Positions 10,956-52,006 of a stretch of 64,000 nucleotides of DNA are shown one piece after another. Origin of the DNA: Cellulomonas phragmiteti. Lineage in GTDB: Bacteria; Actinomycetota; Actinomycetes; Actinomycetales; Cellulomonadaceae. Made by a program: the position numbers and the translations under genes. Location of the stretch: the NCBI RefSeq assembly GCF_016862775.1, contig NZ_BONP01000010.1, positions 85,299 to 149,298 of the forward strand, written 5' to 3'. The notes under the pieces were generated by a model that worked only from the letters and a program-made list of their open reading frames with translations, was not told the origin of the DNA and searched no databases. Every line of letters starts with the position of its first letter. The stretch's first letter is position 1.

Positions 10956-12212
10956 TCAGGAGTCCAGCGCCGCCAGCGCCTGCGCGAGGTCCTCGCGCAG
11001 GTCCTCGACGTCCTCGAGCCCGACCGAGAGCCGGACCGTGGCCTCCCCGATCCCCACGGCCGCCCGGCCGGCGAGGCCGAGCCTGCGGTGCGTCGTCGTC
11101 GCGGGGTGCGTGACGATGGACTTCGCGTCGCCGAGGTTGTTGGAGATGTCGACGACGCGCAGCGCGTCGAGGACCGTGAACGCGGCCTGCTTGGCGGCCC
11201 CCGGGCCCGCGTCGCCCGGCACCGCGAGGTCGAACGTCACGACGGTGCCGCCGCCGGTCTGCTGGGTGCGCGCGAGGTCGTGCTGCGGGTGGGACTCGAG
11301 GTAGGGGTAGCGCACCTGCGCGACGCCCGGCTGGTCCTGCAGCCACCGGGCCAGGCTGAGCGCGGACGCCGCCTGGTGGCGGACCCGCACGCTCAGCGTC
11401 TCCAGGCCCTTGAGCAGGACCCACGCGTTGAACGGGGACAGCGACGGGCCGGTGTGGCGCAGCATGGTCTGCACGGGGCCGCGCACGTAGTCCGACGAGC
11501 CGAGGATCGCCCCGCCGAGCACGCGGCCCTGCCCGTCGATGTGCTTGGTCGCCGAGTACACGACGACGTCCGCGCCGTGCTCGAGCGGGCGGGAGAAGAC
11601 CGGGGTGGCGAACACGTTGTCGACGACGACCGTCGCGCCCGCGGCGTGCGCGAGGCGGCTGACCGCGGCGATGTCGACGAGGTCCTGCATGGGGTTGGAC
11701 GGCGTCTCGAAGAAGACGACGTCCGCGGGCGTCGCGAGCGCCTGCTCCCACTGCGCCGGCACGTGGCCGTCGACGTAGTCGGTCCGGACGCCCCACTTGG
11801 CGAGGATCTCGTCGAGGATCACCACCGTGGACCCGAACAGCGCGCGCGCCGCGACGACGCGCGAGCCGGAGCGCACGAGGGCCGCGAGCGCCGTGAAGAC
11901 CGCGGACATGCCCGTCGCGGTGGCGTAGCAGGCCTCGGCGCCCTCGAGCAGGCGCAGCCGCTCCTCGAACGTCGTGACCGTCGGGTTGCCGTAGCGCGAG
12001 TACAGGAACCGGTCGACGTCGCCGGCAAACCCGGCCTCGGCCTGCGCGGCCGACGCGTACGTGTAGCCCTGGGTGAGGTACACCGCCTCGGACATCTCGC
12101 CGAACCCGCTGCGCACCAGGCCGCCGCGGACCGCGAGGGTGTCGGGTCGCAGGGCCGCGCGGTCGAGCCGGTGGTCGTCCCAGTCGCCCGGGCCGGGCGC
12201 GGGCGTGCTCAC
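10956..12212 (-). CDS. metZ: O-succinylhomoserine sulfhydrylase
   Basis: 418-aa PLP enzyme of the Cys/Met metabolism family. It makes homocysteine directly from an activated homoserine and sulfide. Landmarks are FLYSRYGNPTVTTFEERL, the VFFETPSNPMQDLVDI stretch, the Schiff-base lysine in VVYSATKHIDGQGRVLGGA, and the HPATTTHRRL..IGEATVRLSVGLED end. The MetZ subfamily is chosen over MetB by overall resemblance; O-acetylhomoserine use cannot be excluded. The GTG start overlaps the rhodanese stop by 4 bp, forming an operon behind the SAM-I riboswitch, so methionine synthesis should shut down when SAM is abundant. Confidence 0.92.
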   Translation of the reverse strand: MSTPAPGPGDWDDHRLDRAALRPDTLAVRGGLVRSGFGEMSEAVYLTQGYTYASAAQAEAGFAGDVDRFLYSRYGNPTVTTFEERLRLLEGAEACYATATGMSAVFTALAALVRSGSRVVAARALFGSTVVILDEILAKWGVRTDYVDGHVPAQWEQALATPADVVFFETPSNPMQDLVDIAAVSRLAHAAGATVVVDNVFATPVFSRPLEHGADVVVYSATKHIDGQGRVLGGAILGSSDYVRGPVQTMLRHTGPSLSPFNAWVLLKGLETLSVRVRHQAASALSLARWLQDQPGVAQVRYPYLESHPQHDLARTQQTGGGTVVTFDLAVPGDAGPGAAKQAAFTVLDALRVVDISNNLGDAKSIVTHPATTTHRRLGLAGRAAVGIGEATVRLSVGLEDVEDLREDLAQALAALDS

Positions 12213-12652
12213 GGCTGGACCCAGGGCAGCCCGTCGGCGCGCCAGCCCGTGTGACCGCGGTGGCCGTCGGGGCCCGTCGCGCCCTCGAACCCGTCGAGGA
12301 CGTTGTACGCCGGGCCGTACCCGGCCGCGGTCGCGGCCTGCGCGGCGCCGATCGAGCGCTGTCCGGAGCGGCACAGGAAGACGACGGGGCGACCGTCGCC
12401 CGGGGTGACGCCCGTCGCGGCGAGCTGCTCGACGAACCGCGCGTTGGGCTGCCCGGAGGGGTAGGAGACCCACTCGACGAGGGCCGCCTGACGGCCGAGC
12501 CGGCGCAGGTCCGGCACGCCCACGTAGCGCCACTCGGCGTCGGTGCGCACGTCGACGAGCACGGCGTCGTCGCGCTCGGTCAGCAGGTCCCACGCCTGGG
12601 TCGGCGTGATGTCCCCGGCGTACCCGGGGGCGGGGCGCGGCTGCACGCTCAT
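12209..12652 (-). CDS. Rhodanese-like domain protein
   Basis: 147-aa single-domain rhodanese. VLVDVRTDAEWRYVGVPDL is the first conserved motif; the active-site loop VFLCRSGQRS has Cys as the persulfide-carrying residue. The ATG at 12652 has a perfect GGGAGGA Shine-Dalgarno that overlaps the 3' strand of the riboswitch P1 helix. It is translationally coupled to metZ, so it probably delivers or handles sulfane sulfur for homocysteine formation. That functional link is inferred from the operon. Confidence 0.92.
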   Translation of the reverse strand: MSVQPRPAPGYAGDITPTQAWDLLTERDDAVLVDVRTDAEWRYVGVPDLRRLGRQAALVEWVSYPSGQPNARFVEQLAATGVTPGDGRPVVFLCRSGQRSIGAAQAATAAGYGPAYNVLDGFEGATGPDGHRGHTGWRADGLPWVQP

Positions 12653-12659
12653 GGTCCTC

Positions 12660-12751
12660 CCATCGTCTCTGGCGGTAGCACCCTCGGCCACGGTCTCCCG
12701 TGCGGGTTGCTGCGGCGTCGTCGAGCCAGATCTCTCGGCCGCTCTGGATGG
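12660..12751 (-). promoter_or_regulatory. SAM-I (S-box) riboswitch controlling rhodanese-metZ
   Basis: Read on the minus strand, the conserved core is present: CCATCCAGAGCGGCCGAGAG, then GATCTGGCTCGACGACGCCG, CAGCAACC, and GGTGCTACCGCC. The outer P1 arms CCATC (12751-12747) and GATGG (12664-12660) pair. The latter overlaps the GGGAGGA ribosome-binding site, so SAM binding should hide it: translational OFF control. A TAGCAT -10 box at 12766-12761 puts the transcript start at the aptamer edge. Confidence 0.87.
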
Positions 12752-12852
12752 TCGCCGAGGATGCTACGCCACGACCGGCGCCGGTGTCCGGGCCGTCTCA
12801 GATCGGCCGCGCCCGTGCGGTCGCACCCGGCCGCGTGCCAGGCTGGTCGTCG

Positions 12853-13392
12853 ATGGATGCCCTCGAGGACCTCGTGCTGCGACCCGTGACCGCCACCGAC
12901 GTGCCCGCGCTGACGCTGCTGCTGCACGACGCGTACGCCGACCTCGCGGCCGACGGGCTGAACTTCACCGGCGCGTCCCAGGACGAGGTCACCACCGCGA
13001 GCCGGACCCTGGGGGTCGGGGCGTCGTGGGTGCTCACCGGCCCGGCGGGGCAGCTGCTGGGGACCATCACGGCGACCAGCCCGCCGGGGCGCGGCATCCG
13101 GGCGCTGACCAGCCTGGCCCTGGAGCCGGACCGCGTGTGGCTCAACCAGCTCGCCGTGCACCCCGACGCGCGGGGGCGGGGACTGGCCAAGGTGCTCTGG
13201 GGAACGGTGCGGGACTGGTCGCTCGCCCACGGCATGCGGTCCGTGGGGCTCGACACCGCCGAGCCCGCGGCGGCCCTGCGGCAGATGTACCGCCGGTGGG
13301 GGTTCGTCGACGCGGACACCGTGCAGTGGCCGGGCAAGACCTACCGCAGCGTCGTCATGCTCCACGACCTGCGGCGTCCGCACGTCGCCTGA
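12853..13392 (+). CDS. GNAT family N-acetyltransferase
   Basis: 179 aa. LVLRPVTATDVPALTLLL opens the fold; VWLNQLAVHPDARGRGLAKVLW holds the acetyl-CoA R/Q-x-x-G-x-G/A loop; VGLDTAEPAAALRQMYRRWGF is the C-terminal motif. It stands alone between a SAM-I riboswitch (divergent) and a SAM-IV riboswitch (downstream). There is no Shine-Dalgarno, and a weak CAGGCT box lies a few bases before the ATG, so it may be leaderless. The substrate is unknown. Confidence 0.88.
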   Translation: MDALEDLVLRPVTATDVPALTLLLHDAYADLAADGLNFTGASQDEVTTASRTLGVGASWVLTGPAGQLLGTITATSPPGRGIRALTSLALEPDRVWLNQLAVHPDARGRGLAKVLWGTVRDWSLAHGMRSVGLDTAEPAAALRQMYRRWGFVDADTVQWPGKTYRSVVMLHDLRRPHVA

Positions 13393-13427
13393 CGACGTCC
13401 GCGCCCGAGCCCTCCGGAGTCCGTCGC

Positions 13428-13446
13428 GCGAGACGCCGCGTCTCGC
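13428..13446 (+). terminator. Short perfect hairpin after the GNAT gene
   Basis: GCGAGACGC-c-GCGTCTCGC is a 9-1-9 inverted repeat (effectively an 8-bp stem with a 3-nt loop) 36 bp after the GNAT stop. There is no T run, as is usual in this DNA. It could also be an operator. Confidence 0.4.
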
Positions 13447-13462
13447 ATGATGAGCCGCCACG

Positions 13463-13492
13463 TTGACACGCACGCGGCGCGCGCCCGATCCT
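13463..13492 (+). promoter_or_regulatory. Candidate promoter of the SAM-IV leader
   Basis: A perfect TTGACA (13463-13468) is followed after 18 bp by GATCCT. This places the transcript start just before the riboswitch at 13500. Confidence 0.45.
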
Positions 13493-13499
13493 CGTCGCA

Positions 13500-13614
13500 G
13501 GTCATGAGCGCCAGCGTCAAGCCCCGGCTCGCTGGCCGGCAACCCTCCTCCGCGGTGGGGTGCCCCGGGTGACGACCAGGCCGTGCACCGTTCGGTGCCG
13601 GCAAGCGCGGGACC
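13500..13614 (+). promoter_or_regulatory. SAM-IV riboswitch
   Basis: The stretch matches the SAM-IV pattern known from Streptomyces and Mycobacterium nearly base for base: GGTCATGAGCGCCAGCGTCA, AGCCCCGGCTCGCTGGCC, GGCAACCCTCC, CGCGGTGGGGTGCCCCGGGT, GACGACCAGG, a GCACC-gttc-GGTGC hairpin, and a closing GCGGGACC. The 3' strand GGGACC (13609-13614) can alternatively pair with GGTCCC (13620-13625), giving a plausible expression platform in front of the GGAGGAG ribosome-binding site. Confidence 0.92.
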
Positions 13615-13648
13615 TCACGGGTCCCCGGACCGTTCCCGGAGGAGCACC

Positions 13649-15091
13649 ATGACCACGATCACCGAGCTGTTCTCGTGTGCCGACGAGGTCACGGGCACCG
13701 CGACCTCGGCCCCGCTGCCGCGCCCGGGCGAGGCGCCGCTGCTGCCCGTCGTGGGCGCGTCGACCACCGTGCCGCTCGTCGACGGCACCAGCCGCACGTA
13801 CGCCAACCTGGACTGCGCGGCGAGCGCGCCCGCCCTCGAGGCCGTCACGGCCCGCCTCACCGAGGTGCTGCCCCTCTACGCGTCCGTGCACCGCGGCGCC
13901 GGCTACCTCTCGCAGGTGTCCACCGCGCTCTACGAGGCGTCGCGCGACGCGATCGCACGGTTCGTCGGGGCACGTCCCGACGACGTCACGGTCATCACCC
14001 GCAACACCACGGACTCCCTCAACCTCCTCGCGGGCGTCGTGCCTCCTGGCGGGGCCGTCCTGGTCCTGGACGTCGAGCACCACGCGAACCTGCTGCCGTG
14101 GGTCCAGCGCAGCGGCGGCGCGCACGCCGGCACGGGGCGCATCGCCACGATCCTGCCGCTCGAGCCGACCGTCGCCGCGACGCTCGACGCGCTGCGTGCC
14201 GAGCTCGCCCGGCGCCCCTACGCGCTGCTCACGCTCACCGGCGCGTCGAACGTCACGGGCGAGGCGCTGCCGCTCGACCGCGTCGTCGAGATCGCGCACG
14301 CGGCGGGCACGCGCGTGGCCGTGGACGGTGCCCAGCTCGTGCCGCACCGCGGGTTCTCCCTCGCCTCCACCGACGTCGACTACGTCGCCTTCTCCGGGCA
14401 CAAGACGTACGCGCCGTTCGGGGCCGGGGCCCTCGTGGGCCGCCGGGACTGGCTCGACACGGGCACGCCGTACCTCGCAGGGGGAGGTGCGGTGCGCGAC
14501 GTGCGGACCGACCGGACCGTCTGGCAGCCCGCCCCGGCCCGGCACGAGGCCGGGTCGCCCAACGTGCTGGGCGCGATCGCGCTCGCGCAGGCCTGCGACA
14601 CCCTCGCGTCGCTGCCCGCGGGAGCGCTGGAGGAGCACGAGCAGGCGCTGCGCACGCGCCTCGTCGCCGGGCTCGAGGCGCTCGACGGCGTGCGGGTCGC
14701 GCGGATCTGGCCCGACTCCGCGGACCCGGTCGGGGTCGTGACGTTCACGGTCGGGGACCTCAACCCGGGCCTGGTCGCCGCGTACCTGTCCGCCGAGCAC
14801 GGGATCGGGGTGCGTGACGGCCGCTTCTGCGCCCACCCGCTGCTCGCCCACCTCGGGGCGTCGCACGGCGCCGTCCGGGCGTCCGTCGGGGTCGGCACGA
14901 CGGCCGAGCACGTGGACCGGCTCGTCGACGCGCTCGCCGCGCTGCTGCGCCGCGGCGCCCAGGCCGAGTACGAGGTCGTCGACGGCTGCTGGTCGGTCGT
15001 CGACGACACCCGCCCGCTCATCGAGGTGCGCGGCCTGGACCACCTGGCCGCGACGGCGGCCGCCGCCTGCGGACCGGCGCTCGACGACTGA
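13649..15091 (+). CDS. Aminotransferase class V-fold PLP enzyme (cysteine desulfurase-like), SAM-IV regulated
   Basis: 480 aa. NLDCAASAPAL..V is followed by YASVHRGAGYLSQVSTALYE (residues near 85-105), TVITRNTTDSLNLLA, DVEHHANLLPW, VAVDGAQLVPHRG (the PLP aspartate), and AFSGHKTYAPFGAGALVG with the Schiff-base lysine. A Cys in RDGRFCAHPLL sits where SufS-like enzymes keep their loop cysteine. A 65-aa N-terminal region and a C-terminal tail exceed classic desulfurases. GGAGGAG precedes the ATG. Control by a SAM-IV riboswitch implies a role in Met/SAM or sulfur metabolism; the exact reaction is open. Confidence 0.88.
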   Translation: MTTITELFSCADEVTGTATSAPLPRPGEAPLLPVVGASTTVPLVDGTSRTYANLDCAASAPALEAVTARLTEVLPLYASVHRGAGYLSQVSTALYEASRDAIARFVGARPDDVTVITRNTTDSLNLLAGVVPPGGAVLVLDVEHHANLLPWVQRSGGAHAGTGRIATILPLEPTVAATLDALRAELARRPYALLTLTGASNVTGEALPLDRVVEIAHAAGTRVAVDGAQLVPHRGFSLASTDVDYVAFSGHKTYAPFGAGALVGRRDWLDTGTPYLAGGGAVRDVRTDRTVWQPAPARHEAGSPNVLGAIALAQACDTLASLPAGALEEHEQALRTRLVAGLEALDGVRVARIWPDSADPVGVVTFTVGDLNPGLVAAYLSAEHGIGVRDGRFCAHPLLAHLGASHGAVRASVGVGTTAEHVDRLVDALAALLRRGAQAEYEVVDGCWSVVDDTRPLIEVRGLDHLAATAAAACGPALDD

Positions 15092-15151: not shown

Positions 15152-16237
15152 GTGCTGCACGATCTGATGCTCGAGGGTCATGGTGTCCGGCTCGTCCCGC
15201 TCACGGACGAGCACGCCGAGGCGCTGGCCGGGTTCGTCGACGACCGGGTGTGGGCCGGCATGACCTCCCCGACGCCGCGGGGCGTCGAGGACGTGCGCGC
15301 CGTCGTCGCCGCCGCGTCGTCGACGCCCGGGCGGTACGGGTTCGCCGTGCTCGTCGACGGCGAGGTCGTCGGGTCCACGTCCTTCTACGACGTCGACCTG
15401 GCGATGGGCCGCCTGGAGATCGGGCACACCTTCTACGACCCCCGGGTGTGGGGCACCCACGTCAACCCCGCGTGCAAGCTGCTGCTGATGTCCCACGCGT
15501 TCGAGGCGTGGGGCGTGGCGCGCGTCGCCTACCGCATCGAGGCCCGCAACGCCCGGTCCGTCGCGGCCGTCACCAAGCTCGGGGCGCGTCCCGAGGGGCG
15601 CCTGCGCGGGCACCGCGTCGCCGCCGACGGCACCCGGCAGGACTCGCTGTACTTCTCGGTCCTCGCCGACGAGTGGCCGCACGCCCGGGCGCGGCTGGAG
15701 GCCCGGCTCGCCGGGCAGGGCGCCGCCGACGAGCGCACGTCGGTGCTGCTGATCGGCGGCCGCTCGGGCGTCGGCAAGTCGACCGTCGCGGCTGCGGTCC
15801 ACGACCTGCTCGTCGCGCGGGACGTGCCGCACGCCGTCGTCGAGGGCGACGCGCTCGACCTCGCGCACCCCGCCCCGTGGGAGCACGGCGTCGCGGCCGC
15901 GAACCTCGCGGACGTGTGGCGGCGCTACCGGGCGCTGGGTCACCGGCGGCTGGTCTACACCAACACGGTGTCCGTGCTGGAGGCGCACGCGCTGGCCGAC
16001 GCCGTCGGCGACCGGCCGCACGTGACGTCGGTGCTGCTCACGGCGTCGGACGCCACCGCGCGCGACCGCCTGGGGCGGCGCGAGCACGGGGCGTCGTACG
16101 ACGCGCACGTGACCCGCTCGGACGCGGCCGCCGCGCGGCTCGAGGTCGCGGCGGGCGAGGGTGTGCACCGGGTGAGCACCGACGGGCGGTCGCCGGCCGA
16201 GATCGCCGCGGAGGTCGTCGCCCTCGCGGGGTGGTGA
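15152..16237 (+). CDS. Fusion of a RimJ/RimL-type GNAT acetyltransferase and a P-loop kinase
   Basis: 361 aa. Residues 1-175 are a GNAT_3 domain (GVRLVPLTDEHAEAL, LEIGHTFYDPRVWGTHVNP, RIEARNARSVAAVTKLGA, EGRLRGHRV). Residues about 196-361 form a small P-loop NTPase with Walker A GGRSGVGKST (202-211), resembling gluconate or adenylylsulfate kinases. The fusion suggests one pathway with acetylation and phosphorylation steps, or a toxin/antibiotic-modifying enzyme. It starts 60 bp after the SAM-IV-regulated gene and may be co-transcribed. Start GTG 15152 is assumed; ATG 15167 is an alternative. Confidence 0.8.
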   Translation: MLHDLMLEGHGVRLVPLTDEHAEALAGFVDDRVWAGMTSPTPRGVEDVRAVVAAASSTPGRYGFAVLVDGEVVGSTSFYDVDLAMGRLEIGHTFYDPRVWGTHVNPACKLLLMSHAFEAWGVARVAYRIEARNARSVAAVTKLGARPEGRLRGHRVAADGTRQDSLYFSVLADEWPHARARLEARLAGQGAADERTSVLLIGGRSGVGKSTVAAAVHDLLVARDVPHAVVEGDALDLAHPAPWEHGVAAANLADVWRRYRALGHRRLVYTNTVSVLEAHALADAVGDRPHVTSVLLTASDATARDRLGRREHGASYDAHVTRSDAAAARLEVAAGEGVHRVSTDGRSPAEIAAEVVALAGW

Positions 16238-51702: not shown

Positions 51703-51775
51703 TGGCTCCGACCGGCGTCGATCCGGTGACCTTTCGATTTTCAGTCGAACGCTCTACCAACTGAGCTACAGAGCC
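51703..51775 (-). tRNA. tRNA-Phe (GAA)
   Basis: Read on the minus strand, GGCTCTG pairs with CGGAGCC. The D arm is AGCTCAGTTGGTAGAGC, the anticodon arm TTCGA-CTGAAAA-TCGAA with GAA anticodon, and the T arm CCGGATCGACGCCGG. CCA is not fully encoded. Confidence 0.95.
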
Positions 51776-51814
51776 TCGCAGCGAGACGAGCGGCCTCTCG
51801 GCCGATCCTCGCAG

Positions 51815-51888
51815 CGACCCCGACGGGACTTGAACCCGCGACCTCCGCCGTGACAGGGCGGCGCGCTAACCAACTGCGCTACGGGGCC
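51815..51888 (-). tRNA. tRNA-Asp (GTC)
   Basis: GGCCCCG acceptor; D arm AGCGCAGTTGGTTAGCGC; anticodon arm CCGCC-CTGTCAC-GGCGG with GTC; T arm GCGGGTTCAAGTCCCGT. A G discriminator base, as expected for Asp. Confidence 0.95.
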
Positions 51889-51933
51889 TCGTGGTGGCCG
51901 GAGCCACCGTGAAGCTTCCTGCTGTACTGCTCG

Positions 51934-52006
51934 TACCCCCAACGGGATTCGAACCCGTGCTACCGCCGTGAAAGGGCGGGGTCCTAGGCCGCTAGACGAT
52001 GAGGGC
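51934..52006 (-). tRNA. tRNA-Glu (TTC)
   Basis: GCCCTCA acceptor; D arm CGTCTAGCGGCCTAGGAC; anticodon arm CCGCC-CTTTCAC-GGCGG with TTC; T arm ACGGGTTCGAATCCCGT. First gene of the Glu-Asp-Phe cluster, an order common in actinobacteria. Confidence 0.95.

Follow-up and report, generated by a model that had tools for sequence, protein, structure and literature searches.

The window analysed here, a stretch of 64,000 nucleotides from Cellulomonas phragmiteti, contains two SAM riboswitch aptamers of different classes ahead of divergent sulfur genes. Such a locus raises the question of why two classes serving one ligand should stand side by side, and whether each of them is suited to the gene that it precedes. 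Our answer, which we consider probable as a whole, is that this is a divergent regulatory region whose P4-less SAM-I and SAM-IV matches are each predicted to block translation of their own mRNA with SAM, provided that both bind it in vivo, as we infer.

A divergent pair of SAM aptamers

The initial annotation placed two distinct SAM classes next to each other. In the covariance-model search with the Rfam SAM and SAM-IV models (cmscan, gathering cut-offs), both elements score above the cut-offs. The SAM-IV aptamer (RF00634) occupies positions 13500..13613 of the plus strand, with 112.2 bits against a cut-off of 38 (E 6.8e-20), and the SAM-I aptamer (SAM, RF00162) occupies 12754-12657 of the minus strand, with 53.2 bits against 44.4 (E 2.1e-9). 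They are 745 nt apart. Since the whole genome (4.15 Mb, 67 contigs) yields only two SAM-I matches, one SAM-IV match and no SAM-I/IV match, the closeness of the pair is not a result of chance crowding.

The SAM-I aptamer is followed on the minus strand by the gene for a rhodanese-domain protein with the motif CRSGQRS (12209..12652; Pfam PF00581, 37.8 bits) and by metZ, encoding O-succinylhomoserine sulfhydrylase (10956..12212; NF005870, 718.9 bits against 618). The SAM-IV aptamer precedes a plus-strand gene for a SufS-like cysteine desulfurase of 480 aa with the active-site loop RDGRFCA (13649..15091). This gene had been described as a class V PLP enzyme; it does encode a PLP enzyme, of the SufS-like kind, but its score is below the curated SufS cut-off (TIGR01979, 274.9 bits against 475.1). 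A GNAT acetyltransferase gene, recognised by Pfam (12853..13392, plus strand), is inserted between the two switches. At 15152-16237 of the plus strand lies a gene in which an AAA or kinase-like part with a weak, sub-cut-off APS-kinase match comes after a GNAT domain; in relatives, the SufS-like gene often has a gene of this type downstream. Three consecutive tRNA genes are located elsewhere in the window (51703-52006, minus strand).

We searched 118 related genomes for both riboswitch families and for the SufS-like protein; the matches listed include at least 150 SAM-IV and at least 149 SAM-I places. One locus per genome was retained from 79 genomes (65 from Cellulomonas, 14 from other families within the order), and each locus was scanned with Rfam; the second copy in G034, the second fragment in G067 and more distant hits were left out. 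Seven of the 72 genus genomes (G004, G032, G046, G048, G053, G063, G071) have no SufS-like locus. In 78 of the 79 loci (65/65 in the genus and 13/14 in other families, the exception being L177) the SufS-like gene has SAM-IV ahead of it, and a divergent SAM-I stands ahead of rhodanese-metZ in 62/65 genus loci; as the genomes are related, these counts are not independent. The 62 comprise 50 matches over the Rfam cut-off, nine found by pattern and three (L144-L146) found by R1, a SAM-I model built here. In the remaining loci, the SAM-I among the matches listed is 4.7 kb away (L114), or none occurs in the stretch fetched (L157 and L165). The SAM-IV of L144-L146, the Cellulomonas sp. 73-145 clade, apparently has extra sequence inside the P2 region that shifts the start of the Rfam match. 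Thirteen of the 14 loci from other families have no rhodanese-metZ in the 3.6-7.3 kb that were fetched with the SufS-like gene.

Eighty named records, which mostly repeat the same genomes and add Sanguibacter, Oerskovia, Timonella, Cellulosimicrobium, Isoptericola, Promicromonospora and others, show the same order: rhodanese and MetZ are divergent from the SufS-like gene in 79/80, and SAM-I is present in 79/80. SAM-IV is seen by pattern in 76/80, the exceptions being L208, L215, L217 and L251. The first three repeat contigs whose SAM-IV has an insert and passes Rfam (L217 is a second copy), and the record of L251 starts within the gene. Thus the adjacency of two distinct classes is borne out, and it is conserved in the genus and in related genera. 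The accompanying remark that only a GNAT gene lies between them is correct for the window but not elsewhere: this gene separates the switches in just 9/65 genus loci (L101-L108 and L111). Hence the adjacent pair is the original state, and the lineage of the window carries an insert.

Both classes are known. An association of SAM-IV with genes for class V PLP enzymes or cysteine desulfurases has been published for S. clavuligerus (PMC8269248) and S. lividans (PMC8079986); the latter is reported to have both SAM classes, ahead of different genes. The SAM-IV considered here differs in being paired with a divergent SAM-I, from which a short spacer separates it in relatives. The tandem SAM-II/SAM-V of Candidatus Pelagibacter ubique likewise brings two SAM classes close together, but reportedly in one leader (PMC11508383), whereas here they are on opposite strands and precede separate genes. 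A divergent SAM-I/SAM-IV pair was not found in the open literature, and neither was a P4-less SAM-I, although the search for the latter carries little weight, since the best 8 of its 42 results were mostly unrelated papers on P4.

The spacer, its promoters and a palindrome

All 59 SAM-I/SAM-IV pairs measured in the genus are divergent. The gap between P1 and the other aptamer is at most 135 nt in 43 of them, and in 36 of these it is 118-122 nt. The mean identity of these 36 spacers is only 0.41, and 23 of them are distinct at 80%, so the length is kept while the sequence drifts.

The spacer contains promoter-like boxes for both directions, identified by conserved position and not by a consensus scan; the consensus scans found neither a sigma-70 promoter nor a terminator. 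The predicted −10 box of the rhodanese-metZ promoter, TAGCAT, is at 12761..12766 of the minus strand, and the pattern TANNNT, mostly TAGCAT, occurs 12-14 nt upstream of the SAM-I P1 in 62/63 leaders. For the SufS-like gene, the predicted −35 box TTGACA is at 13463..13468 of the plus strand, the motif TTGAC being present 36-39 nt ahead of SAM-IV in 62/65 genus loci, and the predicted −10 box GATCCT is at 13487..13492 (plus strand; position and alignment by eye). Given these positions, both RNAs probably start with the aptamer, and the opposed promoters would begin both mRNAs a few nucleotides from P1.

The spacer also features a degenerate palindrome, GTCYCG-N5-CGAGAC, scored at 10 of 12 positions at 13440..13456 in the window. 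At least 10 of 12 positions match in 48 of 78 regions upstream of SAM-IV, other families included, against 0.63% of shuffles. Among the 43 short spacers, the palindrome is present in 29, and all 29 copies are centred at 59-61 nt from SAM-I and at 61-63 nt from SAM-IV. A distance of about 60 nt is typical of many activator sites. A palindrome of this shape lacking the five-base gap gave nothing above shuffles. In the 11 loci with spacers longer than 700 nt, the best candidates upstream of SAM-I match 7-9 of 12 positions and are not convincing. We consider the palindrome, placed some 60 nt from both aptamers in many species, to be likely the site of one shared regulator.

Alternatively, the fixed spacing may reflect merely the room needed by two promoters together with recent common descent, the palindrome being unrelated and no regulator being shared. 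This account has a considerable chance of being right, somewhat short of even. The palindrome is absent from 14 of the 43 short spacers, and six of these 14 are still 118-122 nt long. Moreover, each of six genomes has 5-14 occurrences of the exact pattern GTCYCG-N5-CGRGAC, compared to 1-3 for the reversed control (a weak one for palindromes), and no regulon is apparent in these genomes; the degenerate copy in the window does not have the exact pattern. What common descent and promoter room explain less well is the constant centring in 29/29 spacers and the excess over shuffles, which extends to other families. Hence we retain the shared regulator as the preferred reading.

Predicted switching of the two leaders

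The SAM-IV match spans the complete model (1-116 of 116). As in the description of the class in PMC6890682, there is no P4, and the P5 hairpin and the PK-2 strands are present in the sequence. The 3' strand of PK-2, CGCGG, is at 13606..13610 of the plus strand. It is overlapped by a predicted anti-sequestering hairpin (13609..13625), formed by GGGACC (13609-13614) and GGUCCC (13620-13625). The fold test also predicts a sequestering hairpin (13622..13643), formed by UCCCCGG (13622-13628) and CCGGAGGA (13636-13643), which contains the Shine-Dalgarno (SD) sequence GGAGG of the SufS-like gene (13638-13642), all on the plus strand. In the proposed mechanism, the SAM-bound aptamer would hold CGCGG in PK-2 and weaken the overlapping GGGACC/GGUCCC hairpin, so that GGUCCCC would be freed to pair with the SD; without SAM, the GGGACC/GGUCCC hairpin would form and the SD would be open.

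When the PK-2 strand is held in folding, the cost of opening the SD rises by more than 1 kcal/mol in 41/64 genus leaders and falls by more than 1 in two; the mean change is +1.46 kcal/mol, compared to +0.48 for shuffled spacers. For the window the values are 7.2 against 4.8. In other families the cost rose by more than 1 kcal/mol in 6/12 leaders and fell to that extent in none. These are foldings of related sequences with pseudoknots left out, and L132 and L169 were omitted.

A different possibility is that SAM-IV acts by transcription attenuation, the SAM-bound leader causing early termination before the SufS-like gene, and that SAM-I alone is translational. In S. clavuligerus, the SAM-IV before the gene of an 'aminotransferase class V-fold PLP-dependent enzyme' is part of a transcript that ends prematurely, with one of the most extreme read drops (PMC8269248), which points to control of transcription in that species, and GC-rich hairpins do occur downstream of the SAM-IV aptamer here. 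However, a scan for U-tailed hairpins in 12500-13800 found no U-tailed terminator between the aptamers and the genes (U-less terminators exist), and the SD-sequestering fold predicted for the SAM-IV leaders is conserved. We regard attenuation as possible but rather doubtful, and prefer the translational switch.

The initial annotation had instead ascribed to SAM-IV a P1/anti-P1 switch and had seen in the two classes two SAM thresholds or modes. In the window and in most loci of other families, a GGACC-like strand after PK-2 is indeed able to pair with the 5' strand of P1, GGUC, but many genus members carry GGGGUCC or GGGGCC in its place. Folding with P1 forced or forbidden was applied to 64 SAM-IV leaders (L132, with no SD by pattern, was omitted). 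In this pseudoknot-free test, forcing P1 raised the cost of opening the SD by more than 0.5 kcal/mol in 31/64 and lowered it in 21/64, and thus, given no consistent direction, the P1/anti-P1 claim is unsupported. The PK-2-gated switch performs better in this modelling, which is itself modest.

The two-threshold part of that reading meets another difficulty, class exchange at rhodanese-metZ. In two genomes of one other family, G076 and G094, a SAM-IV aptamer is situated 280-320 nt before the rhodanese gene on the same strand (L318 2257-2371, minus; L319 1555-1669, plus), and SAM-I was not found at the rhodanese-metZ of these genomes. In three others (G100, G101, G116) SAM-I is directly ahead of rhodanese. 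Hence the class is not tied to the gene, and, as far as the aptamer assignments go, SAM-IV before rhodanese-metZ in two genomes would speak against a class-specific role. Taken together, a P1/anti-P1 switch with two thresholds is improbable.

The SAM-I element (12657..12754, minus strand) is closest to SAM-I (S-box) riboswitches (RF00162) that have the ribosome-binding site inside P1, and it shares with them P1, a P2 that contains the kink-turn G.A pairs, P3 and the P2-loop pseudoknot. It differs in having no P4 helix: in the cmscan alignment, the P4 portion of the Rfam model is left unmatched, and the score is modest. P1 is formed by CCAUC (12747..12751) and GAUGG (12660..12664), and the pseudoknot by CUGG in the P2 loop (12726..12729) and CCAG (12669..12672), all on the minus strand. 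An alignment of 38 sequences yields 24 pairs, covering P1, P2a/P2b, P3 and the pseudoknot, with 99.5% of cells paired; the G.A pairs of P2 are present, their positions being assigned by eye. Seven pairs are changed on both sides, two of them in the pseudoknot, compared to 0.4 in shuffles. These compensatory changes fall in P2, P3 and the pseudoknot, and the core columns are invariant. P1 is invariant as well, and hence it contributes no covariation evidence. The model R1, built from the same 38 sequences, gives 101 bits at this element and no more than 14.8 elsewhere in the window, but its score is not independent support, since the window's own sequence is among the 38.

There is no room for P4 in any of 61 rhodanese-side SAM-I leaders, nor in 15 further SAM-I copies from the same order; in most leaders the pseudoknot strand and P1 are joined by 2-4 nt. 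Outside the order, SAM-I matches occur in 140/197 genomes of the same class. Among the 30 best-scoring ones, read by eye, P4 is present in all 29 that are readable (L317 is not), and some weaker ones are short enough to lack it. As P4 is absent from the copies within the order, we call the element a P4-less SAM-I subtype rather than a typical SAM-I member; judged from its sequence, it is devoid both of the P4 of SAM-I and of the P5 and PK-2 of SAM-IV. The second SAM-I of the genome (L001, G000:C30:4724-4831, minus strand) is also P4-less; the gene behind it is presumably metF, the name being read from the protein itself. Assignment of the minus-strand element to SAM-I/IV (RF01725) was rejected. 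The SAM core is common to both, but in SAM-I/IV the P2 is undivided, a P4 helix is present and PK-1 is missing (PMC6890682), the element being opposite on each point, and the genome contains no RF01725 match at E <= 0.001.

The SD of the rhodanese gene, GGAGG (12656..12660, minus strand), has one base in common with P1. The pattern GAUGG leads directly into the SD in 54/61 SAM-I leaders, L138 being the 55th by eye, and in four (L120, L121, L131, L132) the SD is not contiguous with P1. Bound SAM would stabilise P1, the 3' strand of which continues into the SD. Thus the earlier suggestion that SAM-I masks the SD directly is backed by the anatomy of the leader, and such masking by P1 has already been published for SAM-I (PMC2258182). 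In two Cellulomonas loci, L122 and L161, a DUF1737 gene (PF08410; 65-68 aa) is located directly after SAM-I, ahead of rhodanese.

That the element is a decayed SAM-I, with SAM binding lost along with P4, is very unlikely: P4 is found in no copy read within the order and the Rfam scores are low, but the core columns are invariant, compensatory change maintains the pseudoknot, SAM-I is kept in at least 62/65 genus loci, and SAM-IV, which also has no P4, binds SAM (PMC6890682).

The sulfur genes under predicted SAM control

The SufS-like enzyme shares with SufS the fold family, the SGHK lysine region and the RxGxxCA loop, the latter present in 76/76 complete homologues, and the solved structures nearest to it are cysteine desulfurases. 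It differs from SufS, apart from the sub-cut-off score, in having a variable tail with a near-terminal cysteine. A cysteine is found in the last 25 residues of 72/76 complete homologues (62/62 in the genus and 10/14 elsewhere), compared to 0.22 cysteines per 25 residues in the body of these proteins. The other SufS-type protein of the genome is 37% identical to it and ends without such a cysteine. The variable C-terminal tail with its cysteine is possibly a mobile persulfide arm.

The tail cysteine and the rhodanese cysteine suggest a persulfide relay to MetZ. The locus is probably one sulfur module: the desulfurase and the rhodanese would supply MetZ with sulfur from cysteine for making homocysteine. 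Two PAPS-reductase-family genes and a MetY-type sulfhydrylase in the same genome imply other sources of sulfide, so the relay would not be the sole route; a cystathionine gamma-synthase and two more paralogues are present as well. The lack of a nearby rhodanese-metZ in 13 of the 14 loci from other families also stands against the relay.

A more far-reaching proposal, which we offer tentatively and consider less likely than not, is that of a compact bidirectional SAM module. One regulator, midway at about −60 of the opposed promoters, together with two riboswitch classes of different mechanics, would control a dedicated cysteine-to-homocysteine relay. The SAM-I half would be a minimal SAM-I/SAM-IV core without P4, P5 and PK-2, the loss of P4 accompanying the fusion of P1 with the SD, and the classes would be interchangeable at the same gene.

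Here nature has set two SAM riboswitch classes next to each other on genes linked in function, so that they can be compared directly, and the exchange of classes at an orthologous operon makes it testable why several classes exist per ligand. The P4-less SAM-I bears on the minimum of the SAM-I/SAM-IV core that may be enough. Finally, a SufS-like enzyme predicted to be under SAM control and located next to rhodanese-metZ points to a possible route by which sulfur enters methionine.
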